Below, one piece after another: positions 6,694 through 42,167 of a stretch of 51,718 bases of DNA (positions are counted from its first letter, which is position 1; each line of letters starts with the position of its first letter). The notes beneath the pieces were generated by a model. That model had not been told where the DNA came from, searched no databases, and worked only from the letters and a program-made list of their open reading frames with translations. The position numbers and the translations under genes were made by a program. Source of the stretch: an uncultured Bacteroidia bacterium (GTDB lineage: Bacteria > Bacteroidota > Bacteroidia > Bacteroidales > F082); the NCBI GenBank assembly GCA_902791165.1, contig CADAVB010000006.1, positions 1 through 51,718 on the forward strand, in the 5' to 3' direction.

Positions 6694-6771
6694 ATGTAAA
6701 TGACGATTAATATTAATCACCATTTACATTATTTTGAGAAAAAATGCGTCAAAATGTTTGGCGCATTTTTC
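6694..6771 (+). repeat. Flanking direct repeat, copy A, containing a terminator
   Basis: Bases 6710-6771 match 8172-8233 at 59 of 62 positions. The left part (6694-6729) is an imperfect palindrome: ATGTAAATG and CATTTACAT arms around the core ATTAATATTAAT. The right part is a hairpin, AAAAATGCG and CGCATTTTT arms around a TCAAAATGTTTGG loop, followed by a T-rich run, so it probably terminates pruA transcription. The TTTG at 6757-6760 inside this hairpin is also correctly placed to be the -33 box of the ATPase promoter. Confidence 0.85.
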
Positions 6772-6778
6772 TTTTTTG

Positions 6779-6786
6779 TATTTTTG
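6779..6786 (+). promoter_or_regulatory. Bacteroidota -7 promoter element for the ATPase gene
   Basis: TATTTTTG matches TAnnTTTG. A TTTG box lies 21-22 bases upstream, inside the preceding terminator hairpin. The predicted leader is about 40 bases of AT-rich sequence (ATTTATATAAATAA, then GGTTAATATT). Confidence 0.6.
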
Positions 6787-6831
6787 CGACATAAATATAA
6801 ACGATGATTTATATAAATAACGGTTAATATT

Positions 6832-8145
6832 ATGAAATTCTACGACAGGGAAATGGAACTGGATCTGCTGTTGCAGAGCGAGAAGCAAACCGTGAGGTCG
6901 GCAGTGTTCACCGTGCTGACGGGTCGCCGCCGCGTGGGAAAGACCTCACTGATTAACAAGGCTTTGGAAGGGAAAAACATCGCCTATCTCTTTGTCTCGA
7001 AAGACAATGAGGCCGTGCTTTGCCAAAAGTTCCAACAGAACATCCAAGAGCAGTTGAACATTCAGGTGTATGGCCAAATCAGCCGTTTCCGCGACTTGTT
7101 TGAAGTGATTATGAAAGAGTCGTTGCAGCGTCATTTCACCGTTTTTCTCGATGAGTTCCAGAATCTCCAAAAGGTGAATCCCGCCATCTTCAGCGAGATA
7201 CAAGACCTTTGGGACCGCTATCATCGAGAGTCGCACCTGCACCTGGTGGCCTCGGGCAGCATACAATCATTGATGAAACGCATCTTCGAGGACGAGAACG
7301 AGCCGCTTTATGGCCGCCCGACCTCGAAATTCACGCTTCTCCCCTTCCGCATCGATGTGTTGAAGCAAATCTTCCGCGACCACAGCCCCAACTTCAAAAA
7401 CGAAGACCTGCTTTGCCTCTACATGATTACCGGCGGCGTGGCCAAATACGTGGAGTTGCTGATGGACGCGCAATGCTACACAAAGGAAAAGATGCTCAAC
7501 TATGTGTGCCGCCCCGACTCCTATTTCCTCAGCGAAGGCCGCGACCTAATGAGCCAAGAGTTTGGCGACGAGGGCAACACCTATTTCTCTATACTTCAAC
7601 TCATTGCCGCCGGCATGACCAAGCGCAGCGAAATCGATGGAGCCATGCAAAAGGACATGGGCGTTTATTTGCAGAACTTGGAGAAGAACTTCATGCTCGT
7701 GAAACGTTTGAAACCCATGCTGGCCAAACCCAACAGCAAAATCACGGCATACGAAATTTCAGACCAGTTCTTGCGGTTCTGGTTCCGCTTCATCTGGCCT
7801 TACCAGTCACTAATCGAGCGGCAGCAAATGTCGGCCTTGCGGCAAAACATAGGCAAGTATTACGAGCAGTTTTCGGGAAGGACGCTGGAGCAGTATTTCC
7901 AGGCCAAAGCGATGGAATCGGGCGAGTTCACGATGGCCGGCAACTGGTGGGACCGCAAAGGCGACAACGAAATCGACATGATTGCCCTGAACGAGTTTGA
8001 GAACACGGGCATCGTGGCCGAAATCAAGCGCAACCCCGAGAAAATCAACCCAAAAACGCTTGAAGAAAAGACAAAAGCATTGCCCACAAGTGCTTTCGGG
8101 AAGTATAAACTTTCTCTTCAAGCATTGTCCATCAAAGATATGTAA
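6832..8145 (+). CDS. DUF234-type AAA ATPase with PD-(D/E)XK-like C-terminus
   Basis: A 437-residue protein of the archaeal-ATPase/DUF234 kind. The N-terminal ATPase has the Walker A motif GRRRVGKTS (residues ~31-39) and Walker B in TVFLDEFQNL (~101-110). The C-terminal part contains EISDQFLRFWFRFIWPY and then NEIDMIALNEFENTG followed by VAEIKRN. The acidic residue in EID followed by E-x-K matches a PD-(D/E)XK nuclease core, as proposed for DUF234 domains. Such proteins occur as scattered, often multicopy, single genes in Bacteroidota, and their function is not established. The gene has its own promoter, and its stop codon overlaps the start of flanking repeat copy B. It sits between two housekeeping genes, which suggests insertion as a cassette. 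No transposase is present. Confidence 0.85.
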   Translation: MKFYDREMELDLLLQSEKQTVRSAVFTVLTGRRRVGKTSLINKALEGKNIAYLFVSKDNEAVLCQKFQQNIQEQLNIQVYGQISRFRDLFEVIMKESLQRHFTVFLDEFQNLQKVNPAIFSEIQDLWDRYHRESHLHLVASGSIQSLMKRIFEDENEPLYGRPTSKFTLLPFRIDVLKQIFRDHSPNFKNEDLLCLYMITGGVAKYVELLMDAQCYTKEKMLNYVCRPDSYFLSEGRDLMSQEFGDEGNTYFSILQLIAAGMTKRSEIDGAMQKDMGVYLQNLEKNFMLVKRLKPMLAKPNSKITAYEISDQFLRFWFRFIWPYQSLIERQQMSALRQNIGKYYEQFSGRTLEQYFQAKAMESGEFTMAGNWWDRKGDNEIDMIALNEFENTGIVAEIKRNPEKINPKTLEEKTKALPTSAFGKYKLSLQALSIKDM

Positions 8146-8233
8146 ACGGCAATTTATATTAATGTACATTTATATTAATCACCATTTACATTATTTCATG
8201 AAAAAATGCGTCAAAATGTTTGGCGCATTTTTC
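8139..8233 (+). repeat. Flanking direct repeat, copy B, containing a terminator
   Basis: This copy begins at the ATGTAA that includes the ATPase stop codon. It holds two TTATATTAAT-type AT-rich blocks (copy A has one), then the stretch 8172-8233 that matches copy A with three differences clustered at 8197-8199. The hairpin AAAAATGCG...CGCATTTTT at 8201-8233 should terminate the ATPase transcript ahead of the fba promoter. Confidence 0.85.
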
Positions 8234-8255
8234 GTTTCCCAAAACAAATAATTCC

Positions 8256-18062: not shown

Positions 18063-18706
18063 TTTTCACCAAAGAACTTTTCTTCCAACATCAGACATAG
18101 ACAGTGATACACAGGCAGATGCAGTTCCTGAATCTTGTATGTTTCTGCTTCGGGAACACGGATGCAAACATCAGAATACTTCATCAGTTTGCTCTCCTTA
18201 CAACCAGTAAGCCCTATCACTTTCAACCCTTTAGCCTTTGCATTGACCGCGGCATAAAGAACATTCATACTATTGCCGGAGGTGGATATTCCCAAAAACA
18301 CATCCCCTTCTTTACCATATCCGTTTACCTGTTGGGCAAACACCAACTCTGGTACCACATCGTTCATGAATGCCGTCTGCAAAGACGAATGTGCGGTCAG
18401 CGAAATGGCAGGCAATGCACCTTGAAGATTGTCTGCAAGCACTTGTCCCAGTTCCGGGTCTATCTCTTTCAAGGCTGTTGCGTGGTCGCCATACACTTTT
18501 CTTTTAAGTTTAAACTCCTTCATCAATTCACCCACAATGTGTTCCGAATCAGAAGCGGAGCCGCCATTCCCGCACACCAAAAGTTTTCCTCCTTTTCGAT
18601 AGGCTGTTTCTATCAGCTCGTATGCTTTCTTGATATCCTCTTTGCAAACCGTCAGTTTGGGATACCTTTCTATTAATAATTGAAGTTGCTCCTCCATAAC
18701 AATCAA
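18059..18706 (-). CDS. gmhA: Sedoheptulose-7-phosphate isomerase (SIS domain)
   Basis: A 215-residue single SIS-domain protein of the GmhA type. GmhA converts sedoheptulose 7-phosphate to D-glycero-D-manno-heptose 7-phosphate. Visible motifs are LLVCGNGGSASDSEHIVGELMKEF, LGISTSGNSMNVLYAA and a C-terminal His-containing helix IQELHLPVYHCLCLMLEE. It overlaps both neighbours by four bases (stop/start overlaps), which indicates translational coupling. With hddA upstream and the fused gmhB-hddC downstream, the GDP-heptose rather than the ADP-heptose branch is indicated. Confidence 0.92.
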   Translation of the reverse strand: MIVMEEQLQLLIERYPKLTVCKEDIKKAYELIETAYRKGGKLLVCGNGGSASDSEHIVGELMKEFKLKRKVYGDHATALKEIDPELGQVLADNLQGALPAISLTAHSSLQTAFMNDVVPELVFAQQVNGYGKEGDVFLGISTSGNSMNVLYAAVNAKAKGLKVIGLTGCKESKLMKYSDVCIRVPEAETYKIQELHLPVYHCLCLMLEEKFFGEK

Positions 18707-19758
18707 TGCTTCAGAGTTTCTATTCTATCTGTTTCGTATATCTTCCAACCATGCGCTCCGCCATCGGTAAAGTTGAAATGCAGTGTGAAACCGTCCAATT
18801 TGCCGAGCGCATCTATTACCGCTTTTTTCTTGGTAGGCTCCACTATGAACATAATGAAGCCACCACCGCCGGCACCACTAACCTTTCCCGCCAAGGCCCC
18901 AGCATCGATAGCCACTGCAAAAGCTTCCTCAATCACAGGGTTGGTGATGGCTCCTGCCATTTTCTTCTTGTCTTCCCAACCTTGTCCGATAATCCGAGCA
19001 AGCGCTTGCATATCGCCTTTCAGCACAGCGAGTTTCATATCCACCGCGCTCTGCTTGATACGATGCATCGCTTCAATGGACATGGTATTGCCCGATGAGA
19101 TATTCTTCCTCTGCTCGTCAATGATGGCAGCAGAGCTTCGCGATCGACCCGTGAAATAAAGCACAATACTGGACTCCATCTCGTCGACTATCCAACGCTT
19201 CACTTTCAGCGGGTTGATTATTACCATGTCGTCATTCAGGAACTCCATATAATTGAACCCGCCAAACGCAGCTGCATACTGGTCTTGCTTGCCACCCGAC
19301 AAATTGAGATCCTTACGCTCAATCTCGTAGGCCAGACGGGCTATCTCATAGTCGCCCAACGGCAGACTGTGCCATTCAACAAACGCTTTTAGTATGGCTA
19401 CCACCATAGTCGAAGAAGTACCTAATCCTGACCCCGCAGGCGCGTCGTTATAGGTAGTTATCTTGCATGATTTCAACGGAATACTGTAATCGCGCATCAC
19501 CCGATTGTAGCAACCTTTCAAAAGCGAAGCCTTGCCGTCTATCTCCAATTTGCGGCTAAGGGGATAGCACTCAAAACATTCATCGTCGTAACTCTCAATG
19601 GTCACGAAATCGTCATCCGTTTCCTCTATCGTACAATAAGCATAGAGATTGATGGTCGCATTCAGAATAATGCCGCCATAAATGTCGCTATAAGGGCTAA
19701 CATCACTTCCTCCTCCCGCAAGTCCAATACGCAACGGTGCTTTACTCCTGACAATCAT
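18703..19758 (-). CDS. hddA: D-glycero-alpha-D-manno-heptose-7-phosphate kinase (GHMP family)
   Basis: A 351-residue GHMP kinase. The N-terminus IVRSKAPLRIGLAGGGSDVSPY is typical of HddA and related sugar kinases. The ATP-binding motif is PAGSGLGTSSTMVVAIL, and the C-terminal motif is GKVSGAGGGGFIMF. It would phosphorylate heptose 7-phosphate at the anomeric position. It is the first gene of the heptose operon, with its own promoter at 19807. L-fucose kinase-like enzymes are the nearest alternative, but gmhA next door settles the assignment. Confidence 0.9.
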   Translation of the reverse strand: MIVRSKAPLRIGLAGGGSDVSPYSDIYGGIILNATINLYAYCTIEETDDDFVTIESYDDECFECYPLSRKLEIDGKASLLKGCYNRVMRDYSIPLKSCKITTYNDAPAGSGLGTSSTMVVAILKAFVEWHSLPLGDYEIARLAYEIERKDLNLSGGKQDQYAAAFGGFNYMEFLNDDMVIINPLKVKRWIVDEMESSIVLYFTGRSRSSAAIIDEQRKNISSGNTMSIEAMHRIKQSAVDMKLAVLKGDMQALARIIGQGWEDKKKMAGAITNPVIEEAFAVAIDAGALAGKVSGAGGGGFIMFIVEPTKKKAVIDALGKLDGFTLHFNFTDGGAHGWKIYETDRIETLKH

Positions 19759-19806
19759 AATTATCTATTTTGAGACAATTCTATTATTTCAAAAAAGTTC
19801 ATTTTG

Positions 19807-19814
19807 CAAAAATA
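19807..19814 (-). promoter_or_regulatory. Bacteroidota -7 promoter element for the heptose operon
   Basis: On the minus strand this reads TATTTTTG, matching TAnnTTTG. A TTG lies 19 bases further upstream. It is 49 bases ahead of the hddA start. Confidence 0.65.
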
Positions 19815-19904
19815 TCAATTTTTCATAAAACAAGAATTAAACAACAGAAAAATCCGAAAGAAACAATTATTTTCGTAAATTCGCAGCCTAAAACAACACA
19901 CCAA

Positions 19905-22409
19905 ATGAAAGATTTTTTTCAAAAAAACAAGAAAACATTCGGCATTTTAGCCTGCATACTTGGCTTCGCTTTAATCACGTTGGTCTATTTCAGTCCCATC
20001 TTTGAAGGCAAACGCATCAAGCAACATGACATAGAAATGTTTCAAGGCATGTCTCATGAAATCAGCGAATACCGAAATGCCACCGGCGAGCAACCTTTAT
20101 GGACCAATTCAATGTTTAGTGGAATGCCTGCTTGGAACATCTCCACCCCCATCAAGAAGAATTTATTTCTTTTCGTCGACCGAGAATTATCTCTTCATCT
20201 ACCAATGCCCATCGGAAGTGTTTTCATCGGCATGTTGGGTTTCTTTATTCTCTTGTTGATACTGGATGTAGGGGTATGGACCAGTGCCATTGGAGCCATT
20301 GCCTATGGGCTTACCTCCTATATGTTCATCATTATCGGTGCGGGACACAATTCAAAGGCTTATGCCATGGCCTACATGGCACCCGTACTTGCAGGCATTA
20401 TTTTGACCTACAAGGGGAAGTATCTTTGGGGAAGTCTTCTTACCACTATCGCACTTGCGTTACAATTAAGATCAAACCACTTGCAAATCACCTATTATTT
20501 AGCGCTTACCATAGCCGTCTTCGTTATTGCAGAATTCATCTGCGACATTAGGAATAAGCGTTTGGGGCATTTTTTTAAAGCTTCTTCCCTCCTCATTGTA
20601 GCTGCTGTTTTCAGCGTGCTAACCTTTTCAACAGTGCTTTATTCAAATTATGAGTTCAGCAAGGACACCACTCGCGGCAAACCCGTGCTGACCGAAGCAG
20701 GCGGCAACCAAACCAAGGGCCTCGACCGCGACTACATCACGCAATGGAGCTACGGCATCGGCGAAACATGGAGCTTGCTAATTCCCAACGCCAAAGGTGG
20801 CGCGTCGGCATATATCGGCAGCCAAAACCCCGCCTTGGAAAAAGCCGACCCGCGCTTCAGGCAAAACATTGCGCAAAGCAATGCCTACTGGGGCGACCAA
20901 CCTGGCACCAGCGGTCCAGTTTATGTTGGCGCTATCGTTGTGTTCCTTTTCTTACTAGGTGCCCTCACCGTAAAAGGCAGCATGAAATGGGCCTTGCTCA
21001 TCGCCACGCTGCTATCCATCCTGCTCAGTTGGGGCAAAAATTTCATGGGGTTCACCGACTTTTTCATCGATTACATTCCTGGCTACAACAAGTTCCGTGC
21101 AGTTTCCATGACTTTGGTCATCGCCGAAGTCACCATGCCACTATTAGGCTTCTTAGGCTTGGCTGAAATCACTAATAATCCTGAATATTTCAAGCAGAAC
21201 AAGAAAAAGTTCTATATCGCGTTGGGCATTACGGCCGGATTCTGCCTGCTGTTTTACCTCGCTCCGAAGGCTTTCTTCTCTTTCCTGAGCCAAGGCGAGG
21301 CCGAACAGTTTGCCCAACTCGGATCGGGCGCCGACGGAGCTGTCTATCAAGCCTTTGCCAGCAGCCTTGAGGACGTGCGCGTGGCCATTTTCCGCAAAGA
21401 TGCCATCCGTAGCTTCCTGTTCATCCTTTTGGCGGCCATCCCGATTTTCCTCTACGGGAAGGGCAAGCTGAAAGCCGTTCCCACTTTCGCCATCCTTGGC
21501 GCATTGATCCTGTTTGACATGTACCCCATCGACAAACGTTATCTCAATAACGACAATTTTGTTTCGAAACAGCAGTACGAGAAACCCTTCACGGAAAGCG
21601 CTGCCGACAGGTTTATCCTCGCCGACAACACGCTCGACTTTAGGGTGCTGAATCTTACTCGCGATGTGTTCAACGATGCCAGTACATCCTATTTCCACAA
21701 GTCGGTGGGAGGCTACCATGGTGCCAAGCTCCGTCGTTACCAAGATCTCATCTCACGCTATCTTAACCCCGAGATTCAAAAGTTTGGTACCATCTTCAAG
21801 AGCATAAGCACCGATGCCGATTTTGCTCCACAGATGGAACAACAGAAGATTTTGAATATGTTGAACACCAAATACATCATTTATAATCCTGAAGCAGCAC
21901 CTTTGGAAAACCCCTGCGCATTCGGCAATGCCTGGATTGTAAATGACATCGTATGGGCAGCAACGCCTAACGAAGAGTTTGACGCTTTGGCCGATACCGA
22001 CTTGCGGCACACCGCAATCCTTCATCAGGAATTCAAGGATCAACTCGCCAGCTATCAACCTTCTGGCGAAATTGAAGGAAACATCAAATTGACCGAATAC
22101 CGTCCCAATCAGGTTACTTATAGTTTCAACGCCGCTGAAGATAAGTTGGTGGTCTTTTCCGAGATCTGGACCAGCAAGGGCTGGACGATGAAAGTTGATG
22201 GAACAGAACATCCCATCCTCCGTTCCAACTACCTCCTCCGGGCTGCTTTGATTCCAGCCGGACAACATGAAATTGTGATGCGCTATGAACCAAGAATCTG
22301 GAAAGTGGGCAACACCATTTGCTTCGTCAGTTCACTGCTAATCCTACTGGTCTTTGCTGTTACTGTTGTGTATTCCATTTTCGGGAAAAAGAAGGCCCAA
22401 CAATCATGA
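19905..22409 (+). CDS. YfhO-family multi-spanning membrane protein
   Basis: An 834-residue protein with about a dozen hydrophobic segments and a large C-terminal soluble part. Early features are LITLVYFSPIFEGKRIKQHDI and the WTNSMFSGMPAW loop, and the late part holds FSEIWTSKGWTMKVDGTEH. These are typical of the YfhO family, GT-C-fold proteins thought to move sugars onto envelope polymers using lipid-linked donors. The start at MKDFFQKNKKTFG is preferred because the longer open frame upstream overlaps the promoter region. A weak promoter-like TAAATTCG lies at 19876-19883. It overlaps the next glycosyltransferase gene by four bases, so the two are coupled. Confidence 0.82.
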   Translation: MKDFFQKNKKTFGILACILGFALITLVYFSPIFEGKRIKQHDIEMFQGMSHEISEYRNATGEQPLWTNSMFSGMPAWNISTPIKKNLFLFVDRELSLHLPMPIGSVFIGMLGFFILLLILDVGVWTSAIGAIAYGLTSYMFIIIGAGHNSKAYAMAYMAPVLAGIILTYKGKYLWGSLLTTIALALQLRSNHLQITYYLALTIAVFVIAEFICDIRNKRLGHFFKASSLLIVAAVFSVLTFSTVLYSNYEFSKDTTRGKPVLTEAGGNQTKGLDRDYITQWSYGIGETWSLLIPNAKGGASAYIGSQNPALEKADPRFRQNIAQSNAYWGDQPGTSGPVYVGAIVVFLFLLGALTVKGSMKWALLIATLLSILLSWGKNFMGFTDFFIDYIPGYNKFRAVSMTLVIAEVTMPLLGFLGLAEITNNPEYFKQNKKKFYIALGITAGFCLLFYLAPKAFFSFLSQGEAEQFAQLGSGADGAVYQAFASSLEDVRVAIFRKDAIRSFLFILLAAIPIFLYGKGKLKAVPTFAILGALILFDMYPIDKRYLNNDNFVSKQQYEKPFTESAADRFILADNTLDFRVLNLTRDVFNDASTSYFHKSVGGYHGAKLRRYQDLISRYLNPEIQKFGTIFKSISTDADFAPQMEQQKILNMLNTKYIIYNPEAAPLENPCAFGNAWIVNDIVWAATPNEEFDALADTDLRHTAILHQEFKDQLASYQPSGEIEGNIKLTEYRPNQVTYSFNAAEDKLVVFSEIWTSKGWTMKVDGTEHPILRSNYLLRAALIPAGQHEIVMRYEPRIWKVGNTICFVSSLLILLVFAVTVVYSIFGKKKAQQS

Positions 22410-41665: not shown

Positions 41666-42064
41666 GGGGATGTATGGTTTTGACAGCAAGATGAATTGTC
41701 ATGCAAGCATGCCGAGCCTCGCAGTGACGCTCGCAAATCTTGACTGCAAAAAAATAATTGGCGAAAACAACTACGCTCTCGCTGCCTGATTGAAGTACAG
41801 TAGATCACTGGCTTAATCCGCACACAAGGTGAGCGGACGAGACATCTCGCAGGTGGAGATTCCTGATTCCGGCCTGAGCACGAGGTGCTAATCAATTTCG
41901 GGATAGCCTTGTCGGCGCTCCGACAGCAAGGCGAAACTTTAGGAGATAAGGCCGTGTTTAGGGCGTTCGCTCCCTTGCTCGGCACGAAAACCAACAGCGG
42001 AATAAGCATGTAGAAACCATGGGGGTTCCTTGTTTGGACGAGGGTTCGACTCCCTCCATCTCCA
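41666..42064 (+). ncRNA. ssrA: Transfer-messenger RNA (tmRNA)
   Basis: The 5' end GGGGATG pairs with CATCTCC near the 3' end to form the acceptor stem. The T arm reads GAGGGTTCGACTCCCTC. The internal reading frame at 41760-41789 encodes GENNYALAA and a stop, the proteolysis tag added to proteins from stalled ribosomes. The tag ends in the protease-recognised ALAA. The CCA end is not fully encoded (ACCT). With SmpB this RNA rescues stalled ribosomes. Confidence 0.96.
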
Positions 42065-42071
42065 CCTTTCC

Positions 42072-42143
42072 GGACCCGTAGTTTAATGGATAAAATAAAG
42101 GATTCCGGTTCCTTAGCTCAGGGTTCGATTCCCTGCGGGTTCT
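42072..42143 (+). tRNA. tRNA-Arg (anticodon CCG)
   Basis: The acceptor arms are GGACCCG and CGGGTTC (one G-U pair), the D arm is AT-rich (GTTT and AAAT), the anticodon loop is TTCCGGT and the T arm is CAGGGTTCGATTCCCTG. The base after the acceptor stem is T and no CCA is encoded. It lies eight bases after tmRNA, so the two may share a transcript. Confidence 0.93.
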
Positions 42144-42167
42144 CTTCCGAAGCAAACACATCCGGCC

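Follow-up and report, generated by a model that had tools for sequence, protein, structure and literature searches.

In this study, we analysed a stretch of DNA of 51,718 nucleotides (the window) and found that a single ATPase-nuclease gene in it, together with the palindromes around it, appears to belong to a large family of one-gene cassettes. The reading that we favour, with slightly better than even confidence, is that each protein of this family binds its own palindromes, which would serve both in regulation and as the ends of a mobile unit; the binding, cutting and self-mobilisation are what we infer from the comparisons below. The promoter palindrome was present in the closest relatives of the window gene, both unit ends carried it in 9 of 10 loci, units had changed places, and homology between them tended to end at the palindromes. 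In a sister subfamily, different proteins have different palindromes, and this is true of paralogues as well.

The window gene lies between the genes for L-glutamate gamma-semialdehyde dehydrogenase (pruA) and class II fructose-bisphosphate aldolase (fba), and the features of the locus are:

6694–6729, no strand: palindrome A, operator-like, ATGTAAATGACGATTAATATTAATCACCATTTACAT; self-complementary at 32 of 36 positions; matches the clade consensus at 35 of 36, four of the 36 being free
6740–6771, + strand: terminator-like hairpin A; 32 of 32 bases identical to terminator B
6757–6760, within hairpin A: TTTG, possibly the −33 box of the ATPase promoter
6779–6786, + strand: TATTTTTG, which we take to be a putative Bacteroidetes −7 box
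6795–6832, no strand: palindrome array P, in the 5' leader between promoter and ATG; matches the consensus at 28 of 36 positions, four of them free; spacing of half-sites about 16 bp
6832–8145, + strand: ATPase_2-DUF234 gene, 437 amino acids; Walker A GRRRVGKT, Walker B DEF, and the nuclease-like residues E353, EID and ExK
8140–8191, no strand: palindrome array B, 52 bp; 42 of 52 positions self-complementary; overlaps the stop codon
8202–8233, + strand: terminator-like hairpin B; identical to hairpin A in the window

Elsewhere in the window, 41666–42144 holds a tmRNA gene with a tRNA-Arg immediately after it; Rfam at its gathering thresholds found only the tmRNA and tRNAs.

An earlier note on this DNA had described a 62-base direct repeat around the gene, and this repeat is real: 6710–6771 and 8172–8233 agree at 59 of 62 bases, against at most 38 for the best 62-mer match among 270 placements at gene-sized spacing in the same window, sampled at every sixth downstream offset. 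A repeat search lengthened the pair to 82 nt at 88% identity (6694–6775 and 8156–8237). Two distinct elements make up the repeat, an AT palindrome of 36 bp and then a hairpin of the terminator type, in the order that had been described, but the left part of palindrome A falls outside the 62 bases. The stop codon, which had been placed inside the second copy (8172–8233), is at 8143–8145, within the first unit of array B. This array is one 16-bp unit longer than palindrome A, with sites at 8140 and 8156, and the "inverse blocks" seen upstream of the ATG proved to be a weaker copy of the palindrome, array P. With the 36-position consensus, built from the window clade and therefore fitting that clade by construction, the only sites in the 51.7 kb scoring at least 26 of 36 were those at 6694, 6795, 8140 and 8156; the background that serves as control reached a maximum of 23 among 302 other stretches of the window. 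The genome search that had been suggested for the repeat found the block confined to this locus: the 86-base block gave seven matches in the genome assembly, namely both places in the window, copy A paired with its own inverse, and four short, weak ones (E 0.009–0.7), so it is not dispersed in its own genome.

The protein, an AAA+-type ATPase with DUF234 as its C-terminal domain, scored above the curated Pfam cut-offs for ATPase_2 (E 6e-15, 56.1 bits, cut-off 33.2) and DUF234 (E 8e-12, 45.9 bits, cut-off 22.5). It had been noted as the one gene between the repeats, with Walker A and B motifs and an EID...ExK segment, and these residues are conserved: an alignment of 24 homologues showed no exception at G31 to R34, G36, K37, D107, E108, E353, E380, D382, E397 and K399. 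All 31 sister-subfamily members examined have D393, E407 and K409; only 13 of these 31 matched DUF234 even at E 0.1. Sequence profiles matched two solved relatives, SSO1545 (2fna) and the Walker-type ATPase 2qen, and the 2qen match extended well beyond the ATPase part, to position 296 of the profiles. These two relatives are probably without the nuclease part, because their chains, of 357 and 350 residues, are matched only to about position 290. Helix-turn-helix matches were weak and occurred in several family members; the region behind the ATPase is probably a winged helix, which agrees with these weak matches and with those to 2fna and 2qen. The sister-subfamily profile also matched TnsC weakly (E 0.0018), within the ATPase part. 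Domain searches of the unit returned ATPase, DUF234-type and weak other matches and no known transposase or recombinase domain, nor a Y1 transposase in the window protein. This protein had no match in PHROGs at E 0.01 and only eight weak matches in phage records, at no more than 28% identity; 127 plasmid records matched a sister protein, each below 60% identity. Thus, no close phage or plasmid carrier was seen in these records.

Of 99 genomes of the genus, 23 encode a homologue that the window protein matches with an E value of 1e-140 or better. Motif scoring covered 22 loci, of which ten, the window included, encode proteins of at least 91% identity (L186, cut by a contig end, was left out). 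Palindrome A occurred in nine of these ten, L104 being the one without it, and palindrome B in all ten, with scores of 31–36 of 36, although the neighbouring genes vary among the ten loci. Wherever protein identity was at least 66% (13 scored loci; L106 and L186 were left out), array P scored 27–32 at the same place. Three of them, L105, L187 and L188 (83, 82 and 66% identity), have P and lack A and B, which indicates that the outer copies are not needed for every insertion. The window-clade motif was absent from the nine scored homologues of at most 54% identity. Many homologues in that range carry other arrays at the same promoter place when their sequences are read directly, for example AATTTAATGRCGTTAAATTAA or GTAAYNNCNRTTAC, and L002, L123 and L124 have outer copies of their own different arrays as well. 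The earlier note held that the cassette idea would fail if other copies of the ATPase lacked flanking repeats; among the scored window-type homologues of at most 83% identity such repeats are indeed lacking, except in L002 and a few relatives.

The interval behind pruA allows occupied and unoccupied sites to be compared. We inspected 21 of 30 fetched pruA loci, the window included; the window-type gene lies directly 3' of pruA in five and is absent there in 16 (in G018 it is found further on). A single repeat copy had been predicted for sites without the gene, and the terminator half of this prediction stood: nine of the 16 have one hairpin of the aaatccg...cggattt type, six another hairpin and one none. 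The AT palindrome was found in none of the 16. Thus, the palindromes are part of the unit, and the terminators are partly those of the site.

Ten ATPase_2-type genes, itself included, were found in the window's own genome with the window protein, besides further genes of the AAA_14/DUF4143 type. The 400 bases upstream and downstream were compared for 33 ATPase-type genes and 236 control genes, with genes at stretch ends dropped. Eight of the ten ATPase_2-type genes, the window gene among them, were bracketed: seven scored at least 62, and the eighth, C41:39334, scored 142 with a corrected start codon, while the genes on C12 and at C14:30784 stayed below 62. No control gene reached 62, and the control maximum of 56 came from one gene beside an ATPase gene. 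Most of the 23 AAA_14/DUF4143-type genes, two of which fall below the Pfam cut-off, are unbracketed; two scored at least 62, and one of these matches is coding-like. Thus, the expectation of flanked paralogues held for the ATPase_2 type and failed for most of the other type, of which a minority, among the DUF4143 genes, may have the same bracketed layout. The palindromes differ from locus to locus within this genome. On contig C41 of G000, a DUF4143-type ATPase gene (18554–19855, in L077) adjoins the bracketed ATPase_2 gene at 20012–21433 and is flanked by a separate pair of palindromes, AAAACTCTG...CAGAGTTTT, which resemble one found outside L292.

The sister subfamily, which is the larger one, was found at E 1e-130 or better in 52 of 99 genomes of the genus, with up to 14 matches each. 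We read 95 loci (30 returned by the search, 59 picked by hand from the matches listed and six from the window's own genome) and scored 94 genes, two loci having no parsable gene and one having two; the genes fall into 32 clusters at 70% identity. The flank score was at least 59 in 83 of the 94 genes, and in 79 the matching pair stood in the canonical place (by medians, −121 to −37 relative to the ATG on the 5' side and +4 to +96 relative to the stop codon on the 3' side). Most of this repeat material is palindromic, in that an inverted repeat scoring at least 12 was found upstream of 87% and downstream of 72% of them. The 5' and 3' copies of the same gene matched each other with a median score of 99. 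When the 5' copy of one gene was compared with the 3' copy of another whose protein is at most 62% identical, the medians per bin were 15–16 and 0–1.1% of the comparisons reached 40 (5728 comparisons); above 70% identity the medians were 64 to 100, and no pairs fell from 62 to 70%. Similarity of protein and of palindrome were correlated with a Mantel r of 0.84, against at most 0.10 in 1000 permutations. This correlation is in part expected from common descent, and the sharp difference among paralogues of the same genome is the telling part. Own 5' and 3' copies were more alike than orthologous copies at the same position in 98 of 118 pairs, which points to homogenisation.

Beyond the genus, a scan of named genomes, whose bins may be mislabelled and some of whose loci repeat genus members, kept at least 80 loci that by their record titles are mainly from gut and rumen Bacteroidales; the matches listed also include Lachnospiraceae, Kiritimatiellae, Spirochaetales and Succinatimonas labels, among others. 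A promoter-side palindrome (score at least 12) was found at 69% of 77 listed loci, compared with 5% of the 236 own-genome controls, and a downstream palindrome at 25% compared with 11%. Among the matches listed, 22 of 77 scorable loci had a flanking pair, and several of these pairs look like target duplications, not palindromes. Across the listed taxa the promoter palindrome is thus the general element, and the downstream copy belongs mainly to this genus. In the upstream regions of L316–L391, many promoter palindromes of these other taxa follow a common loose plan: TATAA lies outermost, the inner arms read AAATC or GCGGAA, and the spacer is AT-rich.

The unit has also changed places. Among 176 pairs of at least 80% identity, the neighbours differed on both sides in 60, upstream only in 47, downstream only in 20 and on neither side in 49. 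Where neighbours differed, homology ended close to the outer edge of the palindrome, with median offsets of +2 bp in 107 pairs and of +1 bp in 80; some 69% of the offsets were within 15 bp, and 10% were beyond 35 bp upstream and 63 bp downstream. These pairs were drawn from few clusters and are not independent. The 67 pairs with a one-sided change fit rearrangement as well as transposition. Such one-sided changes break near a palindrome, and the palindromes may be general rearrangement points. None of 180 sampled same-genome pairs reached 70% identity (top 60%), compared with 232 of 4191 between-genome pairs, so there is no sign of recent copy-and-paste within genomes. L118 and L195, which had seemed to be two copies in one genome, have identical flanks and were taken for a duplicated contig and set aside.

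In G021, the final 36 bases of a host gene occur on both sides of the L105 gene, whose product is 83% identical to the window protein. The same place in G083 is empty with one copy; the overlap is 33 bases, giving a duplication of about 33–36 bp. This pair has the form that insertion with target duplication takes when judged from the two sequences, and the single-copy site of G083 could also come from a deletion between two copies. The occupied and empty site expected of an insertion sequence was thus seen for the L105 homologue; the window site itself is outside that pair. Units also lie beside duplicated gene ends at L220 (65 bases), L307 (44) and L392 (about 70), here with no empty counterpart. 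A constant short target duplication was not found, since the size was about 33–36 bp with an empty site, and 44, 65, about 70 and 118 bp for candidates without one. Repeats outside the unit scored above 40 in six of the 94 sister genes, L311 among them; the score of 63 at L307 falls between the 99% point (29) and the maximum (75) of mismatched pairs. L220 and L276 are one site. Two further candidates were set aside: the outside repeat of L273 reflects two similar neighbouring genes, and that of L292 resembles a neighbour's palindrome. Four genomes carry a unit behind a putative prolyl oligopeptidase gene, and G085 has none there, but we rejected the vacant site as ancestral, because TTCA is common to the left palindrome and the right flank and a later deletion fits better.

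A second site, behind lpxH, gave a mixed picture. This gene was matched in 58 of 99 genomes of the genus and 14 loci were fetched. In G022, the sister-subfamily unit L307 stands behind lpxH; at 12 other lpxH ends (G000 gave no match), an L307-type half-site was present in two, G081 and G048, and absent from ten. Thus, the predicted solo copy in relatives without the gene was found here in two of 12. Neither has a Walker motif or an ATPase frame in the next 1.5 kb, and the G048 copy is decayed. In L410 and L415, the solo palindrome without ATPase comes just after lpxH, and the lpxH frame of L410 extends at its end into the palindrome. In G058 (L416, 588–1850), the lpxH end is present twice, on either side of an unrelated gene of 282 amino acids that is preceded by a GTTAC...GTAAC palindrome. 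It shows that duplicated gene ends are not particular to the ATPase family, which lowers the odds of self-mobilisation, and other one-gene units may use the same sites. A similar GTTAC...GTAAC-like palindrome lies behind lpxH and ahead of other genes in L412 and L414. In G022 (C138:48500–52000, L307), two ATPases, one of each subfamily, are convergent neighbours behind lpxH, and such sites may therefore take repeated insertions.

Our favoured reading can be put as a series of steps. The middle, winged-helix-like region of the protein would bind its own palindromes; such binding seems likely. At the promoter copy P it would repress expression of the gene itself, and at the outer copies it would mark the unit ends. 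There, the nuclease might cut, or host recombination might act, and the unit or its neighbourhood would be re-joined. The surrounding terminators would be ordinary ones, partly the host's. The earlier proposal of a mobile cassette is retained in that a compact one-gene unit has changed places with the palindromes as part of it, and is altered in that the repeat is not simply a duplicated terminator.

The most serious alternative, which we regard as possible though on the doubtful side, is that the gene is an autoregulated phage-defence or stress gene and a passive passenger, spread by horizontal transfer and by recombination of the homologous or illegitimate kind. Its palindromes would then be operators only, and the 3' copy would serve DNA looping or stop antisense or read-through transcription. 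The proteins match the PADLOC PDC-S27 models (E 3.4e-42 for the window protein and E 1.7e-198 for the sister protein L196), with membership judged by E value and not by PADLOC's own cut-offs. The survey passages used here describe PDC-S27 as a one-gene system in which an ATPase is fused to a PD-(D/E)XK nuclease. They class it among the defence candidates, most PDCs still awaiting validation, count 3503 systems in archaea and 4562 in bacteria, and make no mention of palindromes or unit boundaries (PMC12988326). Passive carriage agrees with the promoter palindrome being the most general feature, with the lack of near copies inside one genome and with the unrelated gene between duplicated lpxH ends. 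It accounts less well for homology that stops near the outer palindrome edges in unrelated neighbourhoods, and for a 3' copy kept in 79 of 94 sister genes. Our favoured reading takes in both the operator and the unit ends, and operators at a gene's own promoter have known parallels. Autoregulated toxin-antitoxin and restriction controller genes have a palindromic operator at their own promoter, as the operator-like site here; they differ in that here there is a single protein with extra palindromes at both unit ends.

A stronger form of our reading, which we put forward tentatively and consider rather unlikely, is a new class of autonomous mobile element, in which an AAA+/winged-helix/PD-(D/E)XK protein would recognise private palindromes as operator and as cut ends. 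The unit had been called transposase-less; this is not established, because the ATPase-nuclease is itself a candidate mobilising protein. In REP/RAYT elements, the TnpA-REP gene is flanked by palindromes, and the likeness is that palindromes enclose a gene and seem to vary along with its protein. However, the window unit encodes an ATPase-nuclease, not a Y1 transposase, and its palindrome block occurs only at its own locus. Insertion sequences have one gene, defined ends and a target duplication; one gene, defined ends and a duplication at an occupied and empty site are seen here too, but the palindromic ends are unrelated between paralogues, the duplications vary and there are no near copies per genome.

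It is far less probable that the unit lacks a transposase of its own and was moved in trans or by chance, with the repeat as a duplicated terminator. The same hairpin does end both copies in the window, as had been noted, and L104 has a 51-base duplication that spans terminator and promoter, while gene ends are duplicated at L105, L220, L307 and L392. As read from the sequences, the terminator A hairpin is the same in six of the ten loci with proteins at least 91% identical; two or more kinds of gene precede it (pruA in some), and terminator B is unlike A, to varying degrees, in all nine besides the window. The conserved element is the palindrome, and the nuclease is the sole gene of the unit; the identical terminators of the window are probably due to later homogenisation or duplication. 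Almost nothing is left in favour of intrinsic terminators or chance similarity as the whole explanation of the repeats: some sister palindromes are hairpins with T runs after them, but several have no T run, the window palindrome has an AT-only core and is present in the 5' leader too, and none of the 236 control genes scored 62 or more.

To our knowledge, no settled function has been assigned to the abundant ATPase_2/DUF234 family. The protein family is known as PDC-S27, and the flanking palindromic ends may be of a kind not described in the open literature, where, among the papers listed, titles and the beginnings of abstracts gave no description of palindromes at PDC-S27/ATPase_2 genes. If the autonomous element is true, paralogues in the same cell would be kept orthogonal by their different palindromes, and loss of a unit can leave a solo palindrome. 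The palindromes give each protein a predicted DNA target, so that binding, autoregulation and cutting become directly testable. The natural pairs of protein and target, 94 genes in 32 clusters, would form a specificity code to be read.
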